Origin: Blastopirellula marina DSM 3645 | GTDB taxonomy: Bacteria > Planctomycetota > Planctomycetia > Pirellulales > Pirellulaceae | NCBI RefSeq assembly: GCF_000153105.1 | Contig: NZ_CH672376.1 | Location: 1,529,385-1,593,384, forward strand | Direction of reading: 5' to 3' | Length of the DNA stretch: 64,000 nt | Shown here: positions 16,779-31,818 of the stretch, one piece after another | Layout: each line of letters begins with the position of its first letter | Numbering within the stretch: the first letter of the stretch is position 1 | Made by a program: the position numbers and the translations under genes | The notes under the pieces: model-generated | What the model was told of the DNA's origin: nothing | Database searches by the model: none | Seen by the model: only the letters and a program-made list of their open reading frames with translations

Positions 16779-19700
16779 TTACTCACCGCGTAAAGCGGGA
16801 ATCAGCGGCGTTCGCAACGAAGCTCGCGCAGTCCATCGCCCCGCGATCAAGCCTACGACGAAGATCAGCCCCAGCATCACCGTCAAAGTCGCCCACGGAA
16901 CGCCTGCTGCGCCAAACAGCATATGCGGCAAGACCGCGACCAGGGCCGCTAACACGCCGGTCGCCAGTCCGGCGCTCAACAGCGCTGCGTTCTCGAGCAG
17001 CACCAGCCGAACCAAACGATCGCGGCGAAATCCGGCCGCTTGCAGCAGCGCCAATTCGCCGCGACGTTCAATCACGTTGCGTGCCTGAACCGTCGCCAAC
17101 CCAAAGGTTCCCAGCAACAAGCCGAGCGCGCCGAGACTCTGAAACGTCGAGAGATACGTATTTTGCACCGCCAACAAGTCGATCAGTTTCTGCTTGGCGT
17201 CGGTCGCGTCAAATCCATCTTCGCTCAAACGATCTTCCAAGATCGATGCGACTTCTTCCGTTTCTCCCGGCGGCGTTTGAATCAAAAACATGCGGTAGCC
17301 GCTGGTATCGGGAAAGCGGTCGAGCAAGTTCCCTTCGCTGACAATCAAGCTCCCTTGCAGAATGCTGTTCGAGAGGAGCCCGGCGACCTGATACTTGGTG
17401 GTCCGTCCATCCGGATCGGTCGTCTCGAAGGTTTCGCCCACACCGCCAAACAGATGCAGCGCGTACATCGCCGTGTTTTTATCGAGCGCGCATGGAATCG
17501 GCGCGTTCTCACCATCGGCAGGCTTCTCAAGCACGAGCCAGGGATTCGCCTGCTCTTCTGGCGTGGTCGCCGCTGAGCCTGCCCATTCGAACTGCGCTGC
17601 GCCCTCTTGCGAGTAGTGGGAGATCATCTGCGGCGTCGCTCCCAGCACGCGCGGACTGTTCGACTGATACAAGTTCAAACAACTCGCATCGTCCCCCGGT
17701 TGCATCCGCATCGCCAAGAGGGTCGATTTCGCCAAGAGCGGTTCGTCGCTTTCGCGAAAACCTTGATCGTAGCGGCCGGCCGGCGAATTCAGGTCGTGAA
17801 AGATCGGCTGCGTGCTTTCGGCGATCAAGTCTACGCCGCCGGTTCCGCTTTCCGTCGGAGCCAAACGAAAACTGCTGATCGCGATGATTAAAAACGACGC
17901 CGCGCCGACCAGTCCAATCGTCAACGTACTGCGGCCCGGATTGCGCGCCGCGTTGCTCAGCGCTAACTGCGATAATTGGAACCCAACGCCGGCGGAACGT
18001 TCGGTCGCGCGCCACTGCAGATACCGTCGCTCCAGAAACATCAGCGCCGCCAACATCGCGGCGCCGGCCCCAAAGAAGGCCCCTGCCTGGGCTTCGCCGG
18101 CCAGCGCGGTCGCCAATACGGCTAATCCGATCGAAGCTGCAATCAGCGCTCCACCGGCGTAAATCATCCAACGCCCTTTTCCTGGCTGGTGATCTTGCGA
18201 TGCGGCGGTCTGCCCGGCCAACAAAGCTCGCGGCGAAGTTTTCCGCAACCGCCGCAGCGCCCAAAGGATAGCGCCCAACGAAGCGAATACGCCGCTCGTC
18301 AAACCAATCAGCAGCGTCGCCGGATTGTCGAGATGTAATTGCAAAAACGGCGTCACTACCGCAGCGACCCACCATGTGCGCAGTCCATACAGCATCACCC
18401 AGGCATAGCCGACGCCTAGGATCACCCCCACCAATCCGCCTAGCGAAGCGACGATCGTCGCTTCGATCAACAGCATCGCGCGAATCGCTTTCATCCTCAG
18501 GCCAACGGCCGCTTCGAGTCCAATCTGTCGAGCGCGCTGGTCGACGCCTAATTGGAACAGCAGCAGCGTCAGCATCAGCGCCGCCGCAATAATGAACATG
18601 CTGAAACCGAGAAACAACCCGTTGAACGGCGTCGTGCCGCTGGCCGCTCGCAGCGCATTCTGGCGCGCCGGCAAAAAGCGGAAACCAAGCTCTTCTTTGT
18701 GCTGATTGAGCTCGGCCTCGATGCCTGCGATCAGTTTTTCTTTCGCCATCGCAGTGACCGGAACCCGAATCGACGTCGCGTCGCCAAACCGGCTTCCCCA
18801 CAATTTTTTGCCGGCGCTGAGCGAAACGTAGGCCTTCGGCGTGGTCCGATAGTTTTCCCAATAGGCGTCATCGACTCCGCGGATCCGACGATTGTCGAAC
18901 GGAAACGGCGGATCCCAATCGTCGATCGAATCTTGATCGGTGATCCCTTCCACTTCCGGCGTTAAGTCAGGATCATTCGCGGTGGTCGGCGGCTTATCGT
19001 ACTCGGCCGGTCGCCGCCGTGACGCGGGACTGTCAGGCTCGGTCAATGGAGTGATCGCTGCAACCGTAAACAGACTGGTCGTCTCTTTGGCGATTCCATG
19101 CGAACTTTCTGGCTCAAAGTAAGCGAGTTCGATCGGATCACCGATCGCGGCCCCCAATTGTTCGGCCGACCATGAGTTCAAAATGATTTCATCCTCGGCG
19201 AGCATTCGAATCGGTTCGCCAGCGGTATCAAGCAGCGGGTAAGCGAGCGCACCGGGATCAAGCGCCGTCACTGTCGAATAAGGAATCGCCTGATTGTCGG
19301 TTGACTCTTTTTCAATCGATGTCGTCAGGTAAGTAAAAGTTGGAAACGCCTGCCGGCCGGCCGCTTTCAAAATCGCGGCTTCCGCCGCATCGCTAATGAT
19401 CATCCGCGACGAACTGAGCTGGTAGTAGTCGTAGATCGTTTGCGGATCTGCGCCTTCTGCGGCGAACTCTTGCCGCACCTGATCCAAGCGATAGCCGAAA
19501 TCATCCAGGCCAAGCGTCAACTCGCCCGCAAGTTCTTCGGCGGTTTGATCGGGATCACGTGCAGCCAGCAAAATCGCGTTCGCTTTGCCCGACAGGTCCA
19601 GCGACTCTTCCAATCGCTGTAGCGGGACAAACGCGTTCAGAGGCGCCTGTTGGTTCGGAAACAGTCCGAATCTTCCCAATCCCTGGGCGGGAATAATCGC

Positions 19701-20246
19701 GGCGACTTTCAACCGGGGAATTCCCCGCACGCGGCCTGACTTCTTCCCCAGCGGACTATCGGCCGGCACGTCATTGGACGATGGCAAGCGAATCGCCACC
19801 TCATCGCCGACGGCGACGTTCAACTCGGCCGCTAGCGGCGCATTTAAGACGATTGAGTTCTCGCCGTCGAACTTGGGCGGCTTCGCGTTGGGGTTCAGCC
19901 GCCAAAACGAATCATTCACGCCAAAGATCGAGACTCCCCCGGCCAGGCGAAGATGTTCGCCGGCATGTTCGACGCTGCCGCGCAGCAAGATCAGCGGCGC
20001 GGTTCGTTCGGCGCCGGAGGCCAGTTGCGTCGCTCGATGCTGGGCGAAAAAGCGATCCGCCAAAACAACGTGCGTGACCTCGCCCAAACGATCCAACGAC
20101 AAATCCCGCAGGCTCCCCTGAACCGAATCGCCGACCAGCAGCGCACCGGTCAAGACAGCAGTCGCCGCGGCGACTCCCAGTCCCACCGCCAGGTTGATCG
20201 AGAAATAATAACGTGCGCTGCGAAGCGCAAGTCGCATTTGATCCAT
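16779..20246 (-). CDS. Large FtsX/MacB-type ABC transporter permease
   Basis: 1155 residues from the ATG at 20246, chosen because AGGAG sits about 9 bases before it; the frame is open to an ATG at 20288 overlapping the ATPase gene. One N-terminal membrane segment (about 15-38) is followed by a long exported region, three FtsX-type segments (about 545-690), two more (about 710-750), a second exported region and a final FtsX bundle (about 1040-1150). ARQIGLEAAVGLRMKAIRAM and ERRGELALLQAAGFRRDRLV are the cytoplasmic coupling segments that repeat in such permeases. Such double-unit permeases move lipoproteins or other molecules out of the membrane with a LolD-like ATPase, here the next gene upstream. 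Confidence 0.9.
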   Translation of the reverse strand: MDQMRLALRSARYYFSINLAVGLGVAAATAVLTGALLVGDSVQGSLRDLSLDRLGEVTHVVLADRFFAQHRATQLASGAERTAPLILLRGSVEHAGEHLRLAGGVSIFGVNDSFWRLNPNAKPPKFDGENSIVLNAPLAAELNVAVGDEVAIRLPSSNDVPADSPLGKKSGRVRGIPRLKVAAIIPAQGLGRFGLFPNQQAPLNAFVPLQRLEESLDLSGKANAILLAARDPDQTAEELAGELTLGLDDFGYRLDQVRQEFAAEGADPQTIYDYYQLSSSRMIISDAAEAAILKAAGRQAFPTFTYLTTSIEKESTDNQAIPYSTVTALDPGALAYPLLDTAGEPIRMLAEDEIILNSWSAEQLGAAIGDPIELAYFEPESSHGIAKETTSLFTVAAITPLTEPDSPASRRRPAEYDKPPTTANDPDLTPEVEGITDQDSIDDWDPPFPFDNRRIRGVDDAYWENYRTTPKAYVSLSAGKKLWGSRFGDATSIRVPVTAMAKEKLIAGIEAELNQHKEELGFRFLPARQNALRAASGTTPFNGLFLGFSMFIIAAALMLTLLLFQLGVDQRARQIGLEAAVGLRMKAIRAMLLIEATIVASLGGLVGVILGVGYAWVMLYGLRTWWVAAVVTPFLQLHLDNPATLLIGLTSGVFASLGAILWALRRLRKTSPRALLAGQTAASQDHQPGKGRWMIYAGGALIAASIGLAVLATALAGEAQAGAFFGAGAAMLAALMFLERRYLQWRATERSAGVGFQLSQLALSNAARNPGRSTLTIGLVGAASFLIIAISSFRLAPTESGTGGVDLIAESTQPIFHDLNSPAGRYDQGFRESDEPLLAKSTLLAMRMQPGDDASCLNLYQSNSPRVLGATPQMISHYSQEGAAQFEWAGSAATTPEEQANPWLVLEKPADGENAPIPCALDKNTAMYALHLFGGVGETFETTDPDGRTTKYQVAGLLSNSILQGSLIVSEGNLLDRFPDTSGYRMFLIQTPPGETEEVASILEDRLSEDGFDATDAKQKLIDLLAVQNTYLSTFQSLGALGLLLGTFGLATVQARNVIERRGELALLQAAGFRRDRLVRLVLLENAALLSAGLATGVLAALVAVLPHMLFGAAGVPWATLTVMLGLIFVVGLIAGRWTARASLRTPLIPALRGE

Positions 20247-20271
20247 GCCGACCATCTCCTGCGCGCGTCGT

Positions 20272-20940
20272 TTAGGTAAGGCGTCCATCGTCGAGACTTC
20301 GCCGCGCGGCGAACATCTCGGCCAACTCCATGCTATGCGTCACCGCGATCAGCATCGCGTTCTCTTGCGATTGCAAATCGAGCAACAGTCGACCGATCGT
20401 TTCGGCGTTGGTCCGATCGAGATTGCCGGTCGGTTCGTCCGCCAACAGCAGTCGCGGCTGATGAATCAAACTGCGTGCGACGGCGACCCGTTGCCGTTCG
20501 CCGCCAGAAAGTTCTGCGGGTCGATGACTGATTCGCGACGTGAGTCCGACCCCGTCGATTAAATACTTGGCCCGCTCGACGGCCTCGTTGGATGCGGCGC
20601 CGCCGGCCAATGTTGGCACCAATACATTCTCCAGCACCGACAACTGCGGCAGCAGGTGATGGTCCTGAAAGATGAACCCGATTTTGCGATTACGGAAATC
20701 GGCCAGTTGCGGCTCGGCCAGCTCAAACGGATTTTGTCCATCGAGCGCCACGCCGCCGCTCGTCGGCGACTCGAGCGCGCCAAGACAGTAGAGCAGCGTG
20801 CTCTTGCCGGAACCACTCGGACCAATGATCGCGAGATTTTCGCCAGCATTGAGCGCTAGATCGGCTTGCTGGAGCACGACCAGCGGCTCACCGCGGGTCG
20901 GATATTCTTTACGCAGCGAAACAACGTCGAGATCGGACAT
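20272..20940 (-). CDS. LolD/MacB-type ABC ATPase
   Basis: 222 residues from the ATG at 20940; upstream codons overlap the previous gene and are not conserved in this family. Walker A is GPSGSGKST, the signature is LSGGERQRVAVAR and Walker B is LLLADEPTGNLD, followed by the H-loop in AVTHSMELAEMF. The LADEPTGNLD form marks the LolD/MacB/FtsE group. It begins 14 bp after the prenyltransferase-fold gene and ends just before the FtsX permease, so the two are very likely one transporter. The substrate is not known; it could be a lipoprotein or small molecule. Confidence 0.93.
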   Translation of the reverse strand: MSDLDVVSLRKEYPTRGEPLVVLQQADLALNAGENLAIIGPSGSGKSTLLYCLGALESPTSGGVALDGQNPFELAEPQLADFRNRKIGFIFQDHHLLPQLSVLENVLVPTLAGGAASNEAVERAKYLIDGVGLTSRISHRPAELSGGERQRVAVARSLIHQPRLLLADEPTGNLDRTNAETIGRLLLDLQSQENAMLIAVTHSMELAEMFAARRSLDDGRLT

Positions 20941-20954
20941 GGCGGCGAGTGCGT

Positions 20955-21878
20955 CTAAGGATGCAAGATCGCGAGGCCGCCTAAGCCGTAAAACGTATAT
21001 TCGACATCGGCGACTTCGTCCCAAACGGCGCCAAAGAAGCCGCCGCCCGGTTGTTGTAATCCTTCAACGTAACGCATCGCTGCGGCGGTGTCGATCTCGT
21101 GCAATGCGCCCAGATCGGTCAGCGTCAGACAGCCGGTAAAAGTACTTAGCAGATCGGCGATCGGAATCCGCGTGTTGGCTCGCAGTCCCCCTTCGTCATT
21201 TTGCATTTCGAGCAAAAAGTCGATCGCGCCGTCGGCTACTTCTTGATCCAACCCATCAATGATCCGCAGCGCGCCGATCGCAGCGGCTGTGGGATTGGTG
21301 CCGGCTCGCTTACTAGCTCGAATCTCGCGAAAGCCGCCATCCTCGGCTTCTTGCGAAAGCAGAAAATCGCGAATTCGCTCGGGCTGTACGATCGGGCGCT
21401 CCAGCAATTGCAAACAGAGAAGCACCAAGAACGTGTGATACGTGCTGCTGGCCGATCCCAGTTCTCCCTTGGCGTAACCCCCGTCTTCGCGACGCAATTT
21501 CTCAAGCGCCGCGGCGACTTGCTCGCGCCAGTCTTCGTTGGCGCCGGCAAAGACTTCGACTCCGGCGCTATTTTCCAGCAGACCGGCGCCATAGATCAAG
21601 GAAAGAAAATCGACGATCGTCTCTTGCCCGCCGAGTCGCGAGCGCAAAAAGTCGCATGCTCGGTCCGCTAGATCTCCGTGCAACTCGCCCAGGATCGCCA
21701 ACGAGCGGAGCGCGAATGACGTGTAATAGAGATCGCTGGGACCTTCACGCCCCCCAAAACCGCCGTCGGCTTGCTGTCGGGCGGCAATGAATTGCGTGTG
21801 GCGATCACGGATCTCGACGTCGACTTCGCCCAGCCCCATCGCAATGCGAACCGTCAATTCCGGCAGATAGTTGTTCAT
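20955..21878 (-). CDS. Prenyltransferase/squalene-oxidase repeat protein
   Basis: 307 residues of helical repeats with the QxxxGGF/G pattern (QQADGGFGGREGPSDLYYTSFALRSL, EDGGYAKGELGSASSTYHT, NDEGGLRANTR, GGGFFGA), the alpha-alpha barrel seen in protein prenyltransferase beta subunits and terpene cyclases. In protein prenyltransferases the zinc ligands are an Asp, a Cys two residues later and a His; here the corresponding region reads IADLLSTF and later EYTFYG, so the Cys and His look replaced. It probably does not prenylate proteins in the usual way. It sits 18 bp after a thioesterase and 14 bp before a LolD-like ATPase. Confidence 0.75.
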   Translation of the reverse strand: MNNYLPELTVRIAMGLGEVDVEIRDRHTQFIAARQQADGGFGGREGPSDLYYTSFALRSLAILGELHGDLADRACDFLRSRLGGQETIVDFLSLIYGAGLLENSAGVEVFAGANEDWREQVAAALEKLRREDGGYAKGELGSASSTYHTFLVLLCLQLLERPIVQPERIRDFLLSQEAEDGGFREIRASKRAGTNPTAAAIGALRIIDGLDQEVADGAIDFLLEMQNDEGGLRANTRIPIADLLSTFTGCLTLTDLGALHEIDTAAAMRYVEGLQQPGGGFFGAVWDEVADVEYTFYGLGGLAILHP

Positions 21879-21896: not shown

Positions 21897-22319
21897 CTAG
21901 GCGACAAGATAAGGGGTGATCTTATCGCGAAACCAAGTAGGCGTTTCGATCGACTGCGGCGGCAGCGCATGATAGATGCGACAACAAACGGCGGTCGTTT
22001 CGCCGGTCGCGACCGGTCGACCGTCATGCGAGAATTTGAATCCGTACGTCACGCTTTTGGCGCCCATCTTTTTTACGACGATCGAAATATCGATCTCGTC
22101 TTCAAAGCGAACCGGACTTTGAAAGTCGCAGCGGATCGAGACTCGCGGCCAACTGATCGTCGCATCGCCGTCCGGCGTATGGACCGAAAGTCCCACATGC
22201 CGCAGGAACTCGTGCTCGACTTGTTCCATATAAACGGCGAACGCCGAGAAGTGCATGATGCCGGCGGCGTCGGTGTCACGAAATTCGACCCGTCGCTTTG
22301 TGTGATAAACCTCAGGCAT
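21897..22319 (-). CDS. 4-hydroxybenzoyl-CoA-type (hotdog) thioesterase
   Basis: 140 residues of the YbgC/FadM-like hotdog family, predicted to hydrolyse acyl-CoA thioesters. RRVEFRDTDAAGIMHFSAFAVYMEQ holds the catalytic Asp and the core helix; the SVTYGFKFS strand and the remaining beta strands are of normal length. It is the first gene of a minus-strand group with the prenyltransferase-fold protein and the LolD/FtsX-type transporter, all within 20 bp of each other. The substrate acyl chain is not known. Confidence 0.88.
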   Translation of the reverse strand: MPEVYHTKRRVEFRDTDAAGIMHFSAFAVYMEQVEHEFLRHVGLSVHTPDGDATISWPRVSIRCDFQSPVRFEDEIDISIVVKKMGAKSVTYGFKFSHDGRPVATGETTAVCCRIYHALPPQSIETPTWFRDKITPYLVA

Positions 22320-22858: not shown

Positions 22859-24409
22859 TTACGAGTCTTTCGCCGGGAAAAACTTTTGCAAGGTTTCTTC
22901 GCTAGGCCGGGGAGTTACCAGCGAAACGAGGATTAAAGCGAGCGTCGAACCGGCCAACATCGGAGCAACCGGCATCATATCCAGCACCGAATAGTGTGGG
23001 TTTCCAGCAAAGTCCGACTGGTAGAAAAAGTAGCACCACAGGCTGATCGCCGTAATCACCGACGCGTAAGCCCCCGCTTTGGTGAGACCTTTCCAGTACA
23101 ACGCCGCGAGAACCAGCGGAAACAGCGCCGAGAACCCGCTGAAACACCAGACGCCCAGAGTGAAGACGCGGCGGTAGTCGAGCAGGCTGAGCCCGTAGGT
23201 GATCGCGACGATCAAGATAATGAACGTCCGCGCAATCATGACGATTTGCTTGTCGGTGAAGCGATTTTTGCCGCCGTAGTGGACGACGATATCGTTGGTG
23301 AAGATCGTGCCGACGCAGAGGAACTGACTATCCAGCGACGACATGATCGCCGCCAAGACGCCGGCGGTCAAAAAGCCGCCCAGAACGTCGCCCGAAAAAC
23401 GCTTCACCAAAAATGGCAAAATCGCGTTGGCGTTGGCGTCCACCGCCGGCGGAATCGGCACCAAGTTGCCAGCCGCCCAAGCCCCGATCAACACGCACGG
23501 CGCCCAAACGATCATGATGAACAGCGGATGAGCGACGACCGCCAGTTTAAAGTTGCTTGCTTTACGAGCGGTCAACCAGTGCTGAAACAAGTGCGGGAAC
23601 ATGCCAACCGATAACGGCACAAACATATAGGTTGCGAATCTTAAGTACGACATGCTGGGATTCCCGGCTCGCACCAGTTTGTCGCGGGGGATCGATTCGG
23701 AGGCGGCGACCAGGTTCGCCCATAGACCTTCTTTTCCGCCGATCTGCGAGGCAATGACGAAAAAGGCGACCAAGCCCAGCACCATAAAGACAATCGTCTG
23801 AAAAGTATTGGCCCAAGCGGTGCCGCGCATCCCGCCAAAAAAGACGTAGGTCAACACCACGCCGCAAATCACCAGACTTCCCAGCCATCCTGGCACGCCA
23901 CCTTGCGTCGATTCAAACCAAACCGGAAAAGCGCCGCGGGTCACCGCGGTGACCACCGTGCCGGAAGCCATGACGCCGATCAACAAGTAAGGAATCACCA
24001 GTCCAACCAACACTGGGAACAGCAGGAGCCCCAGCTTGTCGCTCTCGAGTCGATCGCGGAAAAACTCGATCTGCGTCGTATAGCCATATTTTCGGCCCAA
24101 CGACCAAAGTTTGACGCCGAGCACAAAAAAGCAGAGCGAGTGAATGATCCCGCTGGAAGAAGCCAGCAATCCGTAGACGCCGACCCCTTCTTTGTACGAT
24201 TCGCCGGTCGAACCGACGAGCGCGAACGCCGTCATCGTGGTGCCGAAGATCGACATCAGCAGCAAGAACGGGCCGATTGAATGGCTCGCCAACATGTAGT
24301 CTTTGCTCGAACCGCTAAAGAGGCGGTTCGAAAACAAGCCGAGCGCCAGCAGCAGCGCCAAGTAAAAGCAAATGATGACTAGTTGAGTGACGCCGGGTTC
24401 AAACACCAT
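22859..24409 (-). CDS. Sodium/solute symporter (SSS family)
   Basis: 516 residues from the ATG at 24409, two bases past the stop of the DUF3311 gene. About 13 membrane segments are visible. Family hallmarks are FGTTMTAFALVGSTGESYKEGVGVYG (sodium site region), YVFFGGMRGTAWANTFQTIVF and FLTAGVLAAIMSSLDSQFL, the last being the SSS signature. It should import an organic solute with sodium. The pairing with a short DUF3311 membrane protein is common for this class. The solute is unknown. Confidence 0.93.
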   Translation of the reverse strand: MVFEPGVTQLVIICFYLALLLALGLFSNRLFSGSSKDYMLASHSIGPFLLLMSIFGTTMTAFALVGSTGESYKEGVGVYGLLASSSGIIHSLCFFVLGVKLWSLGRKYGYTTQIEFFRDRLESDKLGLLLFPVLVGLVIPYLLIGVMASGTVVTAVTRGAFPVWFESTQGGVPGWLGSLVICGVVLTYVFFGGMRGTAWANTFQTIVFMVLGLVAFFVIASQIGGKEGLWANLVAASESIPRDKLVRAGNPSMSYLRFATYMFVPLSVGMFPHLFQHWLTARKASNFKLAVVAHPLFIMIVWAPCVLIGAWAAGNLVPIPPAVDANANAILPFLVKRFSGDVLGGFLTAGVLAAIMSSLDSQFLCVGTIFTNDIVVHYGGKNRFTDKQIVMIARTFIILIVAITYGLSLLDYRRVFTLGVWCFSGFSALFPLVLAALYWKGLTKAGAYASVITAISLWCYFFYQSDFAGNPHYSVLDMMPVAPMLAGSTLALILVSLVTPRPSEETLQKFFPAKDS

Positions 24410-24411
24410 GA

Positions 24412-24642
24412 TTACTCTTCCCCCTTCTTTTCTTCCATCTGCTGTTCGATGTATTCCAGTTCTTGCGGCCAAGCGAACTGAACCGCCAGGAACCAGGTGA
24501 TCCCGGCCCCCAACGAAATACAAACCTGATACAGCAGTGTCACGGGGATAAAGCCAAATACGAGATTGGCGTTGTCCCAATTCCAGAAGTCCTGATGCAA
24601 AATGATCAGGGCCACGACGAGAGACCAAACGAGGTATTTCAT
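24412..24642 (-). CDS. DUF3311-type small membrane protein
   Basis: 76 residues with two membrane segments (about 3-20 and 35-57) and a charged C-terminus (YIEQQMEEKKGEE). The start is the ATG at 24642; the open frame upstream is not membrane-like. Its size, HQDFWNWDN between the two segments, and its place two bases before an SSS symporter match the DUF3311 family, whose members assist or accompany such symporters. No catalytic motif. Confidence 0.82.
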   Translation of the reverse strand: MKYLVWSLVVALIILHQDFWNWDNANLVFGFIPVTLLYQVCISLGAGITWFLAVQFAWPQELEYIEQQMEEKKGEE

Positions 24643-24866
24643 GATGCAGACGTGCGCGGGAAAGGCATGGCGTCGCTTGCTACCGGTGCAAACAACAGTT
24701 GTTTCAACGCCTATCTTAGAAGAACCAAGCGATGGGCGAAAGCCAAATCCAAAGAAAAAGATCACCGCGGGGAATCGAGGACGCGGATGCGGTGCTCAAG
24801 TCGCTCTCGGCGCCAATGCTCTTACGGCGTCTTCGACGGAAGAGCAGGTCGCCGGGCCCGACGTGA

Positions 24867-25427
24867 TTAAGGGGTGACGATCTCTAGCAACTCAACGGCC
24901 GGTTCGCCGTCGCAGAAGATCAATGCGGTGCGACCATAGATGACGTCGCCGGGGGCCAATGCGAGCAAATCTCGCAATTCTTCGCCCGGCGCGACGCGCC
25001 AGAGACTGGTCAGTTGCACTTGACGCAACACGTTGCGCGTGATCAAAACGCGACCGACCGGAATCTTTTCGCTTTTGATCTCGCGTTCGACAATTTCACT
25101 AAGAAAATCACAGTGCAAACGAACGATGCCAAACTGCACGACCTTGCCGTCGCTTTGCCGTGACAACAGGATCTTCCGTGAATAGGCCGATCCTACCGTC
25201 AGCGTATCGAGCACTTGCACATCGACCGGCGAATCATGAAAGCGTTCGACCGTGACCGTCATGTGATGATCGTGGGCCAACAGTTCGGCAAACGGTTCCG
25301 GCGTCTCGGCGGCGGAAACCTCGGTGAAGTCCCCCAATTCGCTCGGATTGCGATAGAACAGCCGCACCAACTCATCCAAGTCAGGCGTCGTGCGTTGACG
25401 GTCGTTCAACTTCACTCCCTTTCGCAA
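24867..25427 (-). CDS. Chorismate lyase-like protein (DUF98)
   Basis: 186 residues. The core resembles chorismate pyruvate-lyases: MTVTVERFHDSPV opens the barrel, Y82-S-R84-KILL carries an Arg at the place of the chorismate-binding Arg, and EKIPVGRVLIT (about 120-130) matches the PLG-type turn ahead of the last helix. UbiC-type enzymes convert chorismate to 4-hydroxybenzoate and pyruvate. This would give an aromatic head group next to a polyprenyl synthase, whose gene ends 27 bp upstream. No signal. The fold assignment is fairly good; the exact product (2-, 3- or 4-hydroxybenzoate) is not decided. Confidence 0.72.
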   Translation of the reverse strand: MRKGVKLNDRQRTTPDLDELVRLFYRNPSELGDFTEVSAAETPEPFAELLAHDHHMTVTVERFHDSPVDVQVLDTLTVGSAYSRKILLSRQSDGKVVQFGIVRLHCDFLSEIVEREIKSEKIPVGRVLITRNVLRQVQLTSLWRVAPGEELRDLLALAPGDVIYGRTALIFCDGEPAVELLEIVTP

Positions 25428-25454
25428 TCCAGAAGTCAGTCGGTGGGCATGGTC

Positions 25455-27305
25455 TCAGGCGGGCGTGACAGCCATGTCGGCCGTCAACATGTGCATGACG
25501 ATCGGCGGCTGCGATGCGGCCGGGTCATCCAGAATCGTGTCAATCAAGTAGTACATCAGTCGGCGCAGTTCTTCCGGCTCGAGCTGATCGGCAATTTCTT
25601 CGGCGCGGGATCGGTATTTATCGATCAAACGTTCGGCGGCGTCGAACACGCCAGCCGTGGCGTACAACTGGCGAACTTGCGCGACTCGCGACGCCGGACT
25701 TTGCGAATCATCGCTGATTAGTTGGATCAGTTCTGTACGATTCGCCTCATTCAGATTTTCTAACGCCAACGCCCACAAAACGGTCGGTCGGCCACCCAAG
25801 ACGTCGCCGCCAGCAGACAGCTTGTTATCGCTGTCGCCGCGCCAATCTTTCAGATCGTTCAAAATCTGGAAGGCGACTCCCACGTGTCTGGCGAACTGCC
25901 GCATCGAATTGGAATAATCCTCTTCCGTTCCACTTAACAGCACGCCGCATTGCAGGGCCGCCTCAAACGCGGGGGAAGTCTTCAACGCGTAGATCTTCAA
26001 CGCATCGACCGGTTTCAGCGACTTGTCCGCAGCGTCGCGCCAGAGGAGTTCGGCGCCCTGCCCTTCGGACAATCGCATGTGGGCGTCGGCCAGACAGTCG
26101 ATGATGCGGCCGGCGGTTTCGCCCCCCAACTGCGCCATATCGCGACTGACCAAGCGATACCCCAGGCCGATCATGTAGTCGCCCAGATTGATCGCCGTCG
26201 GCACGCCGTACTTGCGGTGAATCGTGACGTCGCCGTAGCGGTAGGCGTCGTCATCTTCGATATCGTCATGGACCAGCGACGCTTTGTGAAAGGTCTCAAT
26301 CGCGAGCGCGGTCCGCTTGACCGAGTCCGAATATTCGCCGACACGCGCCGCGCCGCCGGCCGAAGTCCCTTCGCCGCCGGTCAAAGCGTCATAGACGGCC
26401 AGCGTGGTGAAGGGTCGCGAATACTTTCCGCCGCGAGCTAGAAAATCGAGCGCCAGTTTTTCGGTCGCTGAGATCGGATCGAGCGCCGCCGCTCCGTGAC
26501 CGTTAACTTCGGCCAGGCTCGGACCTTTGCGTTGCGGCTGCACCAGACGGGTCAGTTCTTCCGGCTCAAACATCGCCGAAGCGGCTCGCATCAAGTGAAC
26601 ATAGCTGCGGGTCGTTTGCTGCGGTTGTTGATGCGGCACTTGGATCATGTCATGAACCCAGTCCTCATCGACCGACGTATTGCGACAATCGCTCGAGAGC
26701 AGCGGGACCGCCATGCAGGGGATGCCGGCGAGCAAGATTTTATCAATCGCTTTTTCAAGCACGTTCAAACAAGCGACGCCGACGATCGCGTCGACGTGCC
26801 CGCTGACGATGATCTTCAGTACGATCGGCGAACCTTCGGCGACCAGCACCTTGTAGCCCATTTCTTCGGCGATGGTCCGGTAGTCGGCGATGCTGCAAGC
26901 TCCGCACGTTTTGCAGTCGAGGCCAAACTGGTCATAGTCGGCCGGGCAACCTTCGGCATGTTTCAGACAATGCGGCAACAGAAACAGCCGTCGCTCATGC
27001 GGCACGGCGGCGACCTGATCGCGCCAAAACTCGGAAGCGAACATCACCATGGTCCAGCCGACATAACTGTCAGGTTGGTTTAAACCGGTCAACAGATCGC
27101 GGACGACTTTCTCCATCTCGTCCTTCGGCAAGGGACGAGACTTGTCGAGACCAGCCGCTACCTGCACGCAGGCGGCGCGGATCGTCTCGCGCAACTGCTT
27201 CGACGAAGGGACCTGCTTCAAGTGCGCCGTCTGACGACGACGCGACTTGCGTTTGCGGCCCGGCTCGGAGTCTGCGCTATTGGAGTCGATCGGTGCAATT
27301 GCCAA
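25455..27305 (-). CDS. DUF116-polyprenyl synthase fusion
   Basis: 616 residues in two parts. Residues about 75-220 are a DUF116 domain with clustered Cys (C113, C120, C131, C134, C137; C-K-T-C-G-A-C) that could bind a metal. Residues about 280-610 are an isoprenyl diphosphate synthase. The first Asp-rich motif is D347-D-I-E-D351, and the second is N483-D-L-K-D487, with Asn for the first Asp. FHKASLVHDD and AINLGDYMIG are typical. The chain-length product cannot be read off. It lies 13 bp after the terpene cyclase and 27 bp before the chorismate-lyase-like gene. The fusion of DUF116 to a prenyl synthase is the odd point. Confidence 0.88.
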   Translation of the reverse strand: MAIAPIDSNSADSEPGRKRKSRRRQTAHLKQVPSSKQLRETIRAACVQVAAGLDKSRPLPKDEMEKVVRDLLTGLNQPDSYVGWTMVMFASEFWRDQVAAVPHERRLFLLPHCLKHAEGCPADYDQFGLDCKTCGACSIADYRTIAEEMGYKVLVAEGSPIVLKIIVSGHVDAIVGVACLNVLEKAIDKILLAGIPCMAVPLLSSDCRNTSVDEDWVHDMIQVPHQQPQQTTRSYVHLMRAASAMFEPEELTRLVQPQRKGPSLAEVNGHGAAALDPISATEKLALDFLARGGKYSRPFTTLAVYDALTGGEGTSAGGAARVGEYSDSVKRTALAIETFHKASLVHDDIEDDDAYRYGDVTIHRKYGVPTAINLGDYMIGLGYRLVSRDMAQLGGETAGRIIDCLADAHMRLSEGQGAELLWRDAADKSLKPVDALKIYALKTSPAFEAALQCGVLLSGTEEDYSNSMRQFARHVGVAFQILNDLKDWRGDSDNKLSAGGDVLGGRPTVLWALALENLNEANRTELIQLISDDSQSPASRVAQVRQLYATAGVFDAAERLIDKYRSRAEEIADQLEPEELRRLMYYLIDTILDDPAASQPPIVMHMLTADMAVTPA

Positions 27306-27318
27306 GGGAGAACATTCC

Positions 27319-29151
27319 TTAATGATCGGAAGATGTAGTTACTGTCTCTGGCGCAGGCGGGACGCTGGCGTTGGCTTGCAGCGCGGCGCCGAGTGACGTA
27401 ACCGTCATGACTCTCGGGTAGAGCTTTTCATAATACCACAGCTTCGAGAAGTAAAAACCGATTGGCGTACAGTTGACGTAGCTTCCTTCTTCAACCCTCT
27501 GGCAGAGCCAACCGACCGCTGGAGGGACAATTTCCGCCGAAATATTGGAGTTTTCCGCCGCAAACAGGGCTTCGATCGCCAGCGCCGTCTCTTCGACGCT
27601 GCTCTCGCCTGGCCCCCCGCAAAGAGTAGAAATACTCGGTCCGCCTCCAAAACCGCCATCTTCATTTTGCCGCGCAGCCAGCCACGCGGCCCCTCTTTGG
27701 GCTGTTTCGGACGACATTTTTCCGAGGTCGCGATACGCCAGCAAAACCTTTACGGTCCCATAAATCGGGTTTTCGTCGTCATGGATATCTTGGTTACCAA
27801 ACCAAAGCGGCAACCAAGAACCATCGTCACGCTGTTGTTTTTGGAGATAACGCAAACCGCGTTCAATTGCCCGCTCTACCGGCAGGTCCCCCAGTTCGCT
27901 TCGCCAAGCGTGCAGCGCTCGAATCGCATGCGCAGTCAAATCACTGCCGCTGCGATCAAACGGCTGCGTCCCCCAACCTGCACAAAAGGTGGGCCAGCCG
28001 CCGTCGCTATTCTGCAAGTCGAGCAGCCAACGTGCGCCGCTGATCGCTGCGCTCGCAATCTGGCGACGCGTTTCATTGTCGGCGCGAGGGGAATGAAAAA
28101 AATGTGCGATCGCTAACATAGCCCCCGGAGTATCGTCGGCATCGGGGACCGAACCGCTGAGATCGGTCCATCCCCAACCTCCAGGATCGGCGCCGGTAAA
28201 GGGATGCGTCTCTTGGTATTGGTTCGCTAGTACCCATGGCAAGCAGTCGAGCTCGGCGATATCGTCTCCGCCGGTCGCCAGCGCGCTGATCGAGAGGGTC
28301 GTCACCCAGTTGGCGAGATTCGAGTCAATCGGCCAACTGCCATCTTCGCGCACCGAGTCGACCAAAAATTGCACGCCGTTTTGCGCCACCGGATGGCTCG
28401 CATTACCGATGCTCGCCAGACTCATGACGACAAAACTGGTCAGCGGAGCCGCTTCCAGATAACCGCCGCTCGCCGGTTGCATCCGCTCTAGCACCGCGAG
28501 ACTCTTCTTCACCGCCGCCCCACGCAGACCCCGCATCAGCGGATTGAAGGGAGGCCGATGGAAGTAGCGTGCTTGCCCGATTGCGACCAGCGCCGGGATC
28601 GCATAGCTGACGACCGGCAGCTTCACCAACTTGTAAAACTTCTGCGGCAGGCAAGCGAGTTCAAACGGCAGCGGCGAAACCTCGCGCCAATCCACCAGCC
28701 CCGCCAACGCATAATTGGTCAAAATCGGCACGGCGAACGTTTTGTCTTTGCCGTAGCGTCGGCGCAAGCCGGGGATGCCCCCTTGCGCTTCGATATAGTT
28801 CTCGGCGAAGGCAAGCTGCTCAAACAACGCCTCGCGACGCTCGGCGATCGTTAGCGCGGCGACCGCCAACATGGTGGTCGCAATGTTCGAATAACTGCGA
28901 TCGGTGTCGCCCCAGCCGCCGTCGGGGTTTTGATGTTCGGTAAGATATCGCACTCCCCCCTCAATCAGCGGCATCAAACGCTCGCTTTGGGCCGGATCAT
29001 GCCGCACCACTAACTGTAGGGCGCTGACCGCCGTGGCTGTCGACAAGGCCGATGTCGACAACTCGCCGGTCCAATGCCCTTGCCCATTACGCTGCGCAAG
29101 CAGATCATCGCGGGCAATCGCATAGCAGCGCTGAAGTCGATCTTGGTCCAT
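27319..29151 (-). CDS. Squalene-hopene cyclase-like class II terpene cyclase
   Basis: 610 residues from the ATG at 29151; a TTG two codons upstream is possible. About seven QW-type repeats are visible (QNPDGGWGD, EDGSWPID, SDGGWPTF, RDDGSWLPLWFG, NEDGGFGG). The catalytic class II acid motif is D337-A-D-D340, within PDADDTPG, equivalent to DVDDTA in squalene-hopene cyclase. The length is close to bacterial SHC (about 630-720). It should cyclise a linear isoprenoid, protonated rather than ionised. The polyprenyl synthase is 13 bp downstream. Whether the substrate is squalene or a polyprenyl product is open. A radical SAM gene starts on the opposite strand 185 bp away. Confidence 0.88.
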   Translation of the reverse strand: MDQDRLQRCYAIARDDLLAQRNGQGHWTGELSTSALSTATAVSALQLVVRHDPAQSERLMPLIEGGVRYLTEHQNPDGGWGDTDRSYSNIATTMLAVAALTIAERREALFEQLAFAENYIEAQGGIPGLRRRYGKDKTFAVPILTNYALAGLVDWREVSPLPFELACLPQKFYKLVKLPVVSYAIPALVAIGQARYFHRPPFNPLMRGLRGAAVKKSLAVLERMQPASGGYLEAAPLTSFVVMSLASIGNASHPVAQNGVQFLVDSVREDGSWPIDSNLANWVTTLSISALATGGDDIAELDCLPWVLANQYQETHPFTGADPGGWGWTDLSGSVPDADDTPGAMLAIAHFFHSPRADNETRRQIASAAISGARWLLDLQNSDGGWPTFCAGWGTQPFDRSGSDLTAHAIRALHAWRSELGDLPVERAIERGLRYLQKQQRDDGSWLPLWFGNQDIHDDENPIYGTVKVLLAYRDLGKMSSETAQRGAAWLAARQNEDGGFGGGPSISTLCGGPGESSVEETALAIEALFAAENSNISAEIVPPAVGWLCQRVEEGSYVNCTPIGFYFSKLWYYEKLYPRVMTVTSLGAALQANASVPPAPETVTTSSDH

Positions 29152-29336
29152 CAACAAGGCGGTATCCAGGCGGCGGAAGGGAGGGAATAGACGGGGTTAT
29201 TCAGTTTACGTGCCAGCGGCGCGACTGTCGACGGAGCCGCGTTCCTGTCTTCCCGCGGCTCTTGGTGGTAGAATGAACGACAGATCGCTTGCCCGCAATT
29301 TCCCCTTCGACTCTATCCCTCGACCGTGCTGAGCTT
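29152..29336. promoter_or_regulatory. Divergent region between terpene cyclase and radical SAM genes
   Basis: A 185-bp gap that should carry the promoters of the cyclase operon (minus) and the radical SAM gene (plus). No clear promoter hexamers or long palindromes were seen. Its interest is the shared, head-to-head control of the two transcription units. Confidence 0.4.
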
Positions 29337-30650
29337 ATGTATCTGCGACTCGCCAAACGAGCTCTTCTAGAAACTGACAAACGCCTGGTCGCCAAATTCG
29401 CTTGGCTGATGGGCTACAAGGGTCTGCGAAGCGTCGTCAAGCACAAATCGAGACTCAAGCGGGGCGAGTTCTTCCCCCCGTTCCTCTATATCTCGGTCAT
29501 CAACAGCTGCAATCTTCGCTGTCAGGGGTGCTGGGTCGATGTCGCGGCGAAGCAAGAGAAAATTGATATCGCCGCGATGGACAGTTTGTTAAACCAGGCG
29601 AAAGCGATGGGCAATTCGTTTTTCGGCATCTTGGGGGGCGAACCCTTCATGCATGCCGATTTGCTCGAAATCTTCGCGCGCCATCCCGACGCCTACTTTC
29701 AAGTTTTCACCAACGGGCATTTCATCACCGACGAAGTCGCCAAAGAACTTCGCCGACTCGGCAACGTCACGCCGCTGATCAGCATTGAAGGCTCCGAGAT
29801 CATCAGCGACGAGCGTCGCGGTCGCGGCGGCGTCTATAGCAAGTCGATCGAGGGGATCGAAAACTGCACCCGCAATAAGTTGCTGACCGGCGTCTGCACC
29901 AGCTTGTGCCAAACGAACTATGACGACCTGCTGCAAGAGAAGTGGATTGACCGCCTGATTGAGATGGGGGTCTTCTACACGTGGTACCACATCTACCGCA
30001 TCGTGGGCCCCGAGCCGAATCCGCAATTGGCGCTGACGCCAGAGCAACAGTACCAGGCCCGCAAGTTTGTCGTCGAGATGCGTTGTAAGAAGCCGATTGC
30101 GATCATCGACGCCTACTACGATGCGGATGGCAACGCGCTATGTCCGGCCGCGACCGGGTTCACGCATCACATTTCGCCCTACGGCGATATCGAACCTTGC
30201 CCGGTGATCCAGTTCGCCAAAGAGTCGATCCATGACGAGCGACCGCTGAAAGAGGTTTTCAACGAATCCGAATTCTTACGCGGCTTTCGCGAGTTGGCCG
30301 CCGGCAGCACGCGCGGCTGCATCATCTTGGAGCGTCCCGATCTGCTGAACGAATACGCGCGGAAGAACGAAGCGAAGGACACGACGGTTCGCGGCGCCGC
30401 CTATCAAGAGCTTGACGAACTGCAGACCAACCCTTCGCAGTACAATCCAGGCCGCGAAGTGCCCGAGAAAAGCTGGGCCTATTGGCTGCTGAAGAAGTTC
30501 GCCTTCCATGACTATGGCGCGTATGGTCGGCACTTCGAGCTGAAAAACTGGCGCCCGACCATCAAAGATGGCGAAGCGATCAACCAGTCGCCGTCGCATC
30601 CGCCGCTAGTGCAATTGGAAACGACAATTCCGACATCGGCCGACAAGTAG
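29337..30650 (+). CDS. Radical SAM protein with a C-terminal SPASM-like Cys region
   Basis: 437 residues from the ATG at 29337, the first that is followed by conserved-looking sequence. The radical SAM cluster motif is C58-NLR-C62-QG-C65. FGILGGEPFMHADLLE supplies the SAM-binding GGEP. In the C-terminal half CPAATGFTHHISPYGDIEPCPV resembles the Cys-rich part of SPASM/twitch domains, which bind a second Fe-S cluster. It is not like HpnH of hopanoid synthesis in sequence. It faces the terpene cyclase operon, so I infer a role in modifying that product. The actual reaction is unknown. Confidence 0.85.
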   Translation: MYLRLAKRALLETDKRLVAKFAWLMGYKGLRSVVKHKSRLKRGEFFPPFLYISVINSCNLRCQGCWVDVAAKQEKIDIAAMDSLLNQAKAMGNSFFGILGGEPFMHADLLEIFARHPDAYFQVFTNGHFITDEVAKELRRLGNVTPLISIEGSEIISDERRGRGGVYSKSIEGIENCTRNKLLTGVCTSLCQTNYDDLLQEKWIDRLIEMGVFYTWYHIYRIVGPEPNPQLALTPEQQYQARKFVVEMRCKKPIAIIDAYYDADGNALCPAATGFTHHISPYGDIEPCPVIQFAKESIHDERPLKEVFNESEFLRGFRELAAGSTRGCIILERPDLLNEYARKNEAKDTTVRGAAYQELDELQTNPSQYNPGREVPEKSWAYWLLKKFAFHDYGAYGRHFELKNWRPTIKDGEAINQSPSHPPLVQLETTIPTSADK

Positions 30651-30829: not shown

Positions 30830-30930
30830 GGCGATCCTGCCCCTTTTCTACTTTCGCTTCTGTGGCGTCACGGCCTAACGGAAACTAGAATGTTCGCAAG
30901 CTTATCAATTGGCTGGCGGAGAATCTTGTG

Positions 30931-31818
30931 ATGCAAATTGCCCCGATGCTGCTTCTGCCGATCTTGTTGGCCGCCGATCCCATGCCGCCGGAAGGGCCCG
31001 CCGCTAAGCAAGTTGATCCGCCGGGCGTGCACAATCTGTTTCAAGTCACGCCGCGCGTTTGGAGCGGCAGTCAGCCGCATGGCGTCGCAGGGTTTGAGTC
31101 GCTCGCGAAGCTGGGCGTCCAAGTGATCGTTTCGGTCGACGGCGCCAAACCAGAGATCGCCGCCGCGAAAAAACAGGGCCTGAAGTACATTCATATTCCT
31201 TTTGGCTATGACGGCGTGCCCGGCGACGCTCAAGCTCAACTGGCCGAAGTGATGAAGCAGTACCCGGGTCAGATTTACTTCCATTGCCATCACGGCAAAC
31301 ATCGCGGCCCCGCCGGCGTCGCGATCGCTTGCCTGGCCGAAGGTTCACTGAACACCGCTCAAGCCGAAGCGTTCATGCATCAGGCCGGCACCAGCGGCGA
31401 CTATACCGGACTCTGGAAAAACGTGCACGAGTTCACACCGCTGCCCCCCAATGCTCCCCGCCCCAAGTTGGTCGAAGTCGCCCAGGTCGAGTCGCTCGCC
31501 GCCGCGATGGCCGACATCGATCGAATCTATGACAACCTGGTGCTGATCGACAAAGCCCAGTGGAATACACCAGCCGATCACCCCGATCTGACGCCGGTCG
31601 GCGAAGCATTGATCTTGCGCGAGGGACTGCACGAAGCAGGTCGCTTGCTGGCGGAGGACGAGTACGACGTTAAGTTCCGACAGCTGCTGCAATCGTCAGA
31701 AGCGATCGCGCTAACAATCGAGACGAAATTAAAGCGCGGCGACAAGTCAGGCCTGAGCGACGATCTGGCGAAGCTCAAAAAGTCATGCAACGCTTGCCAT
31801 GCCGACTATCGGAACTAG
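30931..31818 (+). CDS. Dual-specificity phosphatase with a C-terminal cytochrome c'-like domain
   Basis: 295 residues from the ATG at 30931; a GTG sits one codon upstream. A short signal-like N-terminus (MQIAPMLLLPILLA) suggests export. Residues about 35-165 are a DSP/PTP-like domain, with the signature H118-C119-HHGKH-R125 (C-x5-R) where Cys is the nucleophile and Arg the phosphate ligand. Residues about 180-295 are helical and end in C286-NA-C289-H290 followed by ADYRN, the C-x-x-C-H haem attachment form found at the end of cytochrome c' proteins. A periplasmic phosphatase with a haem domain is unusual; the partner and substrate are unknown. Confidence 0.78.
   Translation: MQIAPMLLLPILLAADPMPPEGPAAKQVDPPGVHNLFQVTPRVWSGSQPHGVAGFESLAKLGVQVIVSVDGAKPEIAAAKKQGLKYIHIPFGYDGVPGDAQAQLAEVMKQYPGQIYFHCHHGKHRGPAGVAIACLAEGSLNTAQAEAFMHQAGTSGDYTGLWKNVHEFTPLPPNAPRPKLVEVAQVESLAAAMADIDRIYDNLVLIDKAQWNTPADHPDLTPVGEALILREGLHEAGRLLAEDEYDVKFRQLLQSSEAIALTIETKLKRGDKSGLSDDLAKLKKSCNACHADYRN

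Follow-up and report, generated by a model that had tools for sequence, protein, structure and literature searches.

What does a planctomycete make with a cyclase of the squalene–hopene cyclase (SHC) type that is encoded beside a prenyl diphosphate synthase? The question is raised by a 64,000-nucleotide stretch of the Blastopirellula marina DSM 3645 genome (assembly GCF_000153105.1, contig NZ_CH672376.1, positions 1,529,385 to 1,593,384), hereafter the window. It encodes, in a row on the minus strand, a class II terpene cyclase (CYC), a fusion of a DUF116 domain to a polyprenyl diphosphate synthase (DPPS) and a chorismate-lyase-like protein (LYA), with a divergent gene for a radical SAM protein (RSAM). 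Hopanoids, sterols and other polycyclic terpenoids shape membranes and serve as molecular fossils, and the best-known cyclisation routes to them begin from squalene. The reading preferred here, which we judge to have an even chance of being right, is that the window holds two interleaved pathways, one (M1) for a polycyclic terpenoid lipid made without squalene and one (M2) for a 4-hydroxybenzoate route. Its basis is the observed gene content, gene order, co-occurrence, fold and catalytic residues; the substrates, chain length, order of steps, an iron–sulfur (Fe-S) site and an electron path are predicted.

By its sequence, CYC is a cyclase of SHC fold but not the usual hopanoid enzyme. It matches the N- and C-terminal SQHop families of Pfam (PF13243, 133.6 bits; PF13249, 85.3 bits) and carries the acid motif PDADDT, which confirms the DxDD class II cyclase of the initial annotation; D[A/G]DD[T/S] is present in 29 of 29 extracted relatives (26 with DADDT), this pattern being also the rule by which they were selected. 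In the PDB alignment H410 falls on a histidine of Alicyclobacillus acidocaldarius SHC that we take to be catalytic, and one of the four SHCs compared has that histidine. A PDB search with the CYC C-terminus returned nothing decisive. Against the NCBIfam hopene_cyclase model (cut-off 431.1) CYC scores 123.9 bits, whereas the genome's true SHC, a protein of 691 aa, scores 651.5. At L116 7356-10591 the latter has HpnH as its neighbour (525.8 bits, cut-off 225). HpnC, HpnD and HpnE form a row of their own at L118 6268-9544; HpnC and HpnE exceed their cut-offs, and HpnD falls just short (252.8 against 278.6) (L, G and C numbers denote the loci, genomes and contigs of this analysis). No hpn gene was found among the 10 window proteins scanned. 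In a midpoint-rooted tree of 21 sequences (10 CYC, four SHC, two of squalene-cyclase type and five small class II cyclases) the CYC sequences form one separate clade (support 95/98) rather than grouping with ordinary hopene cyclases, the grouping that would have spoken against the initial annotation. This separate clade, together with the true SHC–HpnH pair and HpnCDE elsewhere in the genome, rules out an ordinary hopanoid locus.

The neighbouring DPPS is a true fusion, as first described: PF01976 (DUF116) covers residues 74-221 and PF00348 residues 286-538 (153.5 bits), and all 22 alignment rows share seven cysteines in the DUF116 part. DUF116 stands in Pfam as a domain of unknown function. 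The first aspartate motif of the synthase is kept as DDIED and the second reads NDLKD, with asparagine in first place. Three PF00348 proteins are encoded in this genome, DPPS among them. The residue five positions before DDxxD governs the product length of prenyl synthases; DPPS has alanine there, as does L156, and the short-chain-type L157 has tyrosine. By this rule, the sequence suggests a product longer than C20. In the one paper found to name the domain, DUF116 proteins are predicted to bind metal and have a CxxCxxC motif (PMC5898192).

How firmly are the two genes tied? Distribution was counted in 294 Planctomycetota genomes, with thresholds that differ between families. CYC is present in 66 (E<=1e-30), including 20 of the 21 sampled genomes of the window's class (class by the kinship column), G087 being the exception. 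DPPS is found in 70, after six of 76 matching the prenyl-synthase part alone were set aside; some of the 70 matches are partial at contig ends, and that of G098 comprises the synthase part only. A ferredoxin family, c3, occurs in 63 (E<=1e-30), and RSAM has strong orthologs in 59 (E<=1.8e-128), the 21 weaker of 80 matches at E<=1e-60 having been dropped. LYA is present in 43 (E<=1e-8) and rSAM10, a HemN-like radical SAM family, in 59 (E<=1e-110). CYC is accompanied by DPPS in 64 genomes (phi 0.92), by c3 in 61 (phi 0.93, Fisher p 1.9e-54) and by RSAM in 57 (phi 0.89), these and the following values being taken from raw counts that ignore shared ancestry; 53 of the 294 genomes have all four. 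CYC occurs with rSAM10 in 47 genomes (phi 0.69) and with LYA in 34 (phi 0.56), and LYA and rSAM10 are together in 42 (phi 0.80).

Of 453 confirmed relatives, the 80 best, all in named loci, were examined for gene order. In 66 of them (66 of the 73 testable) DPPS comes next after CYC and shares its strand, 63 within 400 bp and three at 1.2-1.4 kb; among the remainder a contig ends before DPPS in seven, DPPS is elsewhere in the locus in one and absent in six. The genes are thus conserved and not a chance assembly. The gene order originally proposed holds less well at its far end: LYA comes after DPPS in 36 of the 66, is absent from 23 and is contig-limited in seven (36/59 testable). Longer runs in L044, L078, L091, L096 and L109 have further genes followed by RSAM, CYC, DPPS and LYA. 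The extra genes, in varying subsets that nowhere include all, encode a ligase, an aldehyde dehydrogenase (ALDH), an iron-containing alcohol dehydrogenase (Fe-ADH), a pyrroloquinoline quinone (PQQ)-propeller protein, rSAM10, a GcvH-like protein and c3.

Some individual genomes depart from this pattern. G087, without CYC, c3 or a strong RSAM, yet has LYA, rSAM10 and a DPPS-like gene; G187 has two CYC matches, on contigs C72 and C41, and G105 two DPPS-type matches. Close CYC copies also occur in metagenome-assembled genomes (MAGs) labelled Verrucomicrobia, Methylacidiphilum and Kuenenia (L051, L065, L075, L099, L105 and L106), which may reflect transfer or mislabelling.

Is squalene the substrate? 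The 65 other CYC genomes were searched for squalene/phytoene synthase (PF00494), which was found in 51 and undetected in 14, among them two genomes that are 99% complete and one that is 96% complete, although the 14 are mostly drafts in which genes may be missed. At >=90% completeness and <=5% contamination, it is present in 31 of 38 genomes and undetected in seven. Because 14 of the 65 have no detectable PF00494, a prenyl diphosphate from DPPS is a likelier substrate than squalene, and on the sequence evidence CYC probably does not need squalene. CYC could instead be a second triterpene cyclase that acts on the squalene from HpnCDE, with DPPS serving another purpose or making a farnesyl donor. 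The SHC fold, the SHC-type acid motif, a tree position nearer SHC and the squalene genes of this genome and of the 51 others all speak for such an enzyme. We nevertheless think it improbable, given the genomes in which PF00494 is undetected and the tie of CYC to DPPS, with HpnCDE and SHC elsewhere.

Which other genes belong to the cyclase pathway? Twelve distant regions from 11 genomes were hand-picked for clustering or for absence of PF00494, and so are not a random set. In nine of the 11 genomes (L120-L125, L129-L131) c3, RSAM, DPPS and CYC lie together, in L124 with other open reading frames (ORFs) between the four, and M1 was defined from this clustering; c3 or DPPS was in some regions placed by its homology match. 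The nine also include a GcvH-like protein (eight genomes), a CobW-type GTPase (c41; seven), a prenyltransferase-type toroid protein (PT; seven) and a small cysteine protein (four). The M1 genes of G126 are on separate contigs, and G284 (L128) has no strong RSAM. The gene set of the initial annotation was therefore incomplete, having overlooked the GcvH-like protein, the ferredoxin c3, the CobW GTPase and the toroid protein. Its naming of RSAM as a partner at the locus is upheld by these nine genomes and by the phi of 0.89, but only 18 of the 80 loci have RSAM inside them, in 11 divergently. RSAM itself is as described there, a PF04055 protein whose alignment reveals CxxxCxxC and three conserved C-terminal cysteines. 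It scores only 41 bits with the HpnH model (TIGR03470, cut-off 225).

PT adjoins DPPS or CYC in L120, L121, L123, L124, L125, L128, L129 and L130, and was assigned to M1 because of this place in distant operons. Its alignment, judged by eye, retains the aspartate zinc ligand and has leucine and tyrosine at the cysteine and histidine positions, which we presume from the ligands of farnesyltransferase. It appears to be a prenyltransferase-like toroid and may bind a prenyl chain. In the window's genome a PQQ-propeller protein, rSAM10, a GcvH-like protein and c3 are encoded in an operon 0.3 Mb away (L117 9232-13329, C2 ~1893.2-1897.3 kb); such genes are unlinked to CYC here and lie within the CYC locus in some relatives. 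The lipoyl lysine is retained in all 22 aligned GcvH-like proteins. The small cysteine protein (YCxCAY ... ACxPRAV) is found at L121 11726-12082, L120 7309-7680 and L130 13444-13845. It looks like a stand-alone N-terminal domain of c3; the Planctomycetia form has largely lost the cysteines. Cysteine-desulfurase-like genes (class-V aminotransferases) adjoin M1 at L120 14560-15756, L121 13885-15039 and L131 14422-15564.

LYA is present in the same row of genes, but is it part of the same pathway? Its AlphaFold2 (AF2) model (33-row alignment) has a predicted local distance difference test score (pLDDT) of 92.9. Foldseek places the DUF98 protein 2NWI first (E 7.1e-8; template modelling (TM) score 0.66/0.76), and UTRA domains and E. 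coli UbiC follow (TM 0.53-0.62; 1fw9 0.54/0.60). In a MAFFT alignment with UbiC of E. coli K-12, R76 and E155, which we take to be the active-site residues counted without the first methionine, fall on LYA R84, which hardly varies, and E182, which is the same in all 33 rows; the active-site residues whose loss would have spoken against a lyase are thus in place. A single hhalign comparison with UbiC gave a probability of 58% and E 9.7e-5 over a stretch that includes R84 and not E182. The PDB profile search with the LYA alignment was weak (2NWI at E 0.066, behind a chance match to Nup50 at E 0.0076), so the case for a likeness to chorismate lyase is built on the Foldseek result and the UbiC alignment, which bear out the features first noted. 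No Pfam family matches LYA, and no Pfam or NCBIfam lyase model scores above cut-off (a relative reaches 13.9 bits against 22). Lyase activity is likely from the modelled fold and these residues, although UTRA domains have the same fold.

The distribution of LYA does not fit the fixed partnership that was first proposed. At the threshold used, 32 of the 66 CYC genomes lack it and nine of the 43 LYA genomes lack CYC, whereas rSAM10 is present in 42 of the 43. In those nine, rSAM10 is <=110 bp from LYA in seven, on another contig in G087 and absent from G281. Regions around LYA were retrieved from eight of the nine (not G009), some on short contigs, and from six CYC genomes. In the eight, homologs of window families near LYA comprise the FtsX-like permease in five (L142, L143, L146, L147 and L148), the ABC ATPase in five, the 4HBT thioesterase in four, the sodium:solute symporter (SSF) in three (L146, L147 and L148) and DUF3311 in one (L146). 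Varying subsets of a halogenase/geranylgeranyl-reductase-like flavoprotein, a ligase, ALDH, Fe-ADH and a glycosyltransferase are also present. Among the six regions from CYC genomes, only L155 has SSF and DUF3311 homologs, and rSAM10 adjoins LYA in L149, L152 and L155. M2 is defined, loosely, on these recurring neighbours of LYA, that is rSAM10 and the transporter and thioesterase families of the window.

Could the two products nevertheless be joined? In a meroterpenoid pathway, 4-hydroxybenzoate from LYA and the DPPS chain would be linked by an unseen prenyltransferase, after which CYC would cyclise the product and RSAM tailor it. The placing of LYA immediately behind DPPS (36 of the 59 testable loci), its UbiC catalytic residues and its presence in 34 of the 66 CYC genomes are consistent with this, as is 7xkx among the PDB matches of CYC, which we take to be MstE, a cyclase acting on prenylated hydroxybenzoate. 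Set against these are the genomes with one of the two genes and not the other. In f3, the other large family of the class, to which Thalassoglobus apparently belongs, the 15 CYC genomes keep LYA 0.2-4.3 Mb from CYC (10) or on another contig (five). No UbiA-type gene was noticed among the recurrent CYC neighbours scanned, though no search of loci or genomes was aimed at UbiA, and the one UbiA-family gene encountered, in the M2 locus L155, is a heme o synthase. We consider a meroterpenoid unlikely; the idea is a possible one that a window of two modules does not require. A single four-gene meroterpenoid operon is weakened further by the separate distributions of LYA and CYC and by the M2 neighbours of LYA. 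Of the initial annotation's interpretation of the whole set, a conserved terpenoid locus, a non-hopene cyclase and the lyase residues stand, and LYA passes to the second module.

On the two-pathway reading, M1 would consist of CYC, DPPS, RSAM and PT in the window together with the GcvH-like protein and c3 of the second operon. From isopentenyl diphosphate (IPP), DPPS would build a medium- or long-chain prenyl diphosphate, all-trans in geometry, which the DxDD acid of CYC would protonate so that it folds into rings. RSAM would then make a radical modification, with electrons supplied via c3 and possibly the lipoyl arm of the GcvH-like protein, and the cysteine-rich DUF116 domain, which probably binds an Fe-S cluster or a metal, could link the chain-making enzyme to this supply of electrons. 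M2 would comprise LYA, the 4HBT thioesterase, the symporter and the ABC/FtsX exporter here, with rSAM10 elsewhere in the genome and, in relatives, the ligase, ALDH, Fe-ADH, flavoprotein and glycosyltransferase. It would convert chorismate to 4-hydroxybenzoate, followed by processing and export of a derived product. A bolder proposal, favoured only tentatively, makes M1 a near-universal pathway of the class. Its class II cyclase would form a polycyclic lipid from a long prenyl diphosphate joined head to tail, in place of squalene; the synthase would carry its own Fe-S domain, and a relay of lipoyl carrier, ferredoxin and radical SAM protein would finish a membrane terpenoid of a new class, next to the hopanoids and sterols.

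Several observations weigh against the two-pathway reading, besides the squalene genes of most CYC genomes, the draft state of those without them and the raw-count basis of the associations. The CYC clade lies beside the SHC and squalene-cyclase types (100/99), with the small class II references apart (100/100), and is thus nearer to SHC and squalene cyclases than to small class II cyclases of prenyl diphosphates. The EETA and K-x-LY motifs of CYC, tried as a test for a diphosphate substrate, are absent from the five small class II references and were dropped. Strong RSAM is missing from nine and c3 from five of the 66 CYC genomes, and a fold search with the DUF116 model (pLDDT 78.9) gave no match at E<=0.001. 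LYA has no M2 neighbour in view in L150 and L151, and their interleaved genes in Pirellulales may point to joint action of the two modules. A further alternative, that M1 mainly serves redox chemistry or a sulfur cofactor, the cyclised prenyl chain being only a membrane anchor, would explain the redox genes in the operon, the retained lipoyl lysine and the desulfurase-like genes (none of which, where scanned, passes a curated NCBIfam cut-off), but the latter were noticed in only three of the 12 distant regions and two of the best conserved members of the set are terpenoid enzymes, which makes it highly improbable.

The layout of the locus is given in Table 1. The gaps on the minus strand are 13 bp between CYC and DPPS (27306-27318) and 27 bp between DPPS and LYA (25428-25454), and the divergent gap is 185 bp counted from the two ATG codons 29151 and 29337, all as first reported. 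For RSAM, ATG 29337 is the family-conserved start (M17 is invariant in the alignment), and 29289 is an in-frame TTG upstream. LYA may start at TTG 25409, which has a better ribosome site and would widen its gap to DPPS beyond 27 bp. The conserved block exceeds the span first noted and reaches ~16779; on the minus strand the M2 genes (FtsX, ABC, 4HBT, SSF, DUF3311 and LYA) are interleaved with those of M1 (PT, DPPS and CYC). Beyond RSAM, the ORF at 30928-31818 has weak tyrosine-phosphatase-like and cytochrome c' domain matches, all below cut-off.

Table 1. Genes of the two proposed modules (positions in the window)
Gene product	Module	Position	Strand	Evidence
CYC, SHC-fold class II terpene cyclase	M1	27319..29157, likely start ATG 29151	-	Pfam, invariant columns, PDB alignment, tree
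DPPS, Cys-rich DUF116 + trans-polyprenyl diphosphate synthase fusion	M1	25455..27305	-	Pfam, alignment, motifs
RSAM, radical SAM protein	M1	29337..30650 (ORF listed from 29289)	+	PF04055 58.4 bits, alignment
PT, 307-aa prenyltransferase-type alpha-alpha toroid	M1	20955..21878	-	PF00432 72.8 bits
LYA, chorismate-lyase-like, DUF98/UbiC fold	M2	24867..25427	-	AF2 model, Foldseek, UbiC alignment, distribution
DUF3311 small protein, symporter partner	M2	24412..24765	-	PF11755
Sodium:solute symporter (SSF) family protein	M2	22859..24628	-	PF00474
4HBT-type thioesterase	M2	21897..22319	-	PF13279
ABC transporter ATPase	M2	20272..21024	-	PF00005
Large FtsX/ADOP-like permease, ABC ATPase partner	M2	16779..20288	-	NCBIfam ADOP 48.7 bits, below cut-off

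Has such a gene set been described before? No description of the CYC–DPPS set was found in the titles and abstract openings of the open-licence papers that the searches returned, and the main text of a Planctopirus limnophila essential-gene paper contains none of the terms sought (PMC10632474). In the available part of a quinone survey, Planctomycetota are named only in a figure legend (PMC13386864). Menaquinone-6 (MK-6) is reported as the predominant quinone in three Gemmata strains, and the accessible portion of that paper thus reports no 4-hydroxybenzoate-type quinone in the genus (PMC10817699); two Gemmata MAGs with CYC are in the present set (L078, L088). The genes are of known kinds; their combination and the probable squalene-free route, as read from sequence, are new relative to the literature searched. 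The locus points to an uncharacterised lipid. If the reading is true, an important phylum would have this as a core lipid, made by a cyclase with a dedicated prenyl synthase in 20 of the 21 sampled genomes of the class, and DUF116 would gain a testable setting.

How does the system compare with those already known? With the SHC of the hopanoid pathway CYC shares the fold, the DxDD acid, the repeats and the YGT motif, but it has its own clade, is tied to DPPS and also occurs in genomes where no squalene synthase was detected. RSAM resembles HpnH, the adenosyl-hopene radical SAM enzyme, in being a radical SAM protein beside an SHC-like cyclase, whereas its score is below cut-off and the genome's true HpnH adjoins its own SHC. 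LYA shares the fold and two catalytic residues with the UbiC and DUF98 (Rv2949c-like) chorismate lyases but has no Pfam match, and PT is without the cysteine and histidine ligands of the zinc protein prenyltransferase beta subunit. With class II cyclases of prenyl diphosphates (labdane and drimane types) CYC is predicted to have in common the kind of substrate and the partnership with a prenyl synthase; it is longer, at ~610 aa to their 515, and the five references form a clade that excludes it. Triterpenes are usually cyclised from squalene, according to the available part of a paper on fungal non-squalene triterpene synthases (PMC9177416). Those enzymes, as described there, and the system predicted here would both make large terpenes without squalene, the fungal ones as class I chimeric proteins and the planctomycete one with synthase and class II cyclase as separate proteins.

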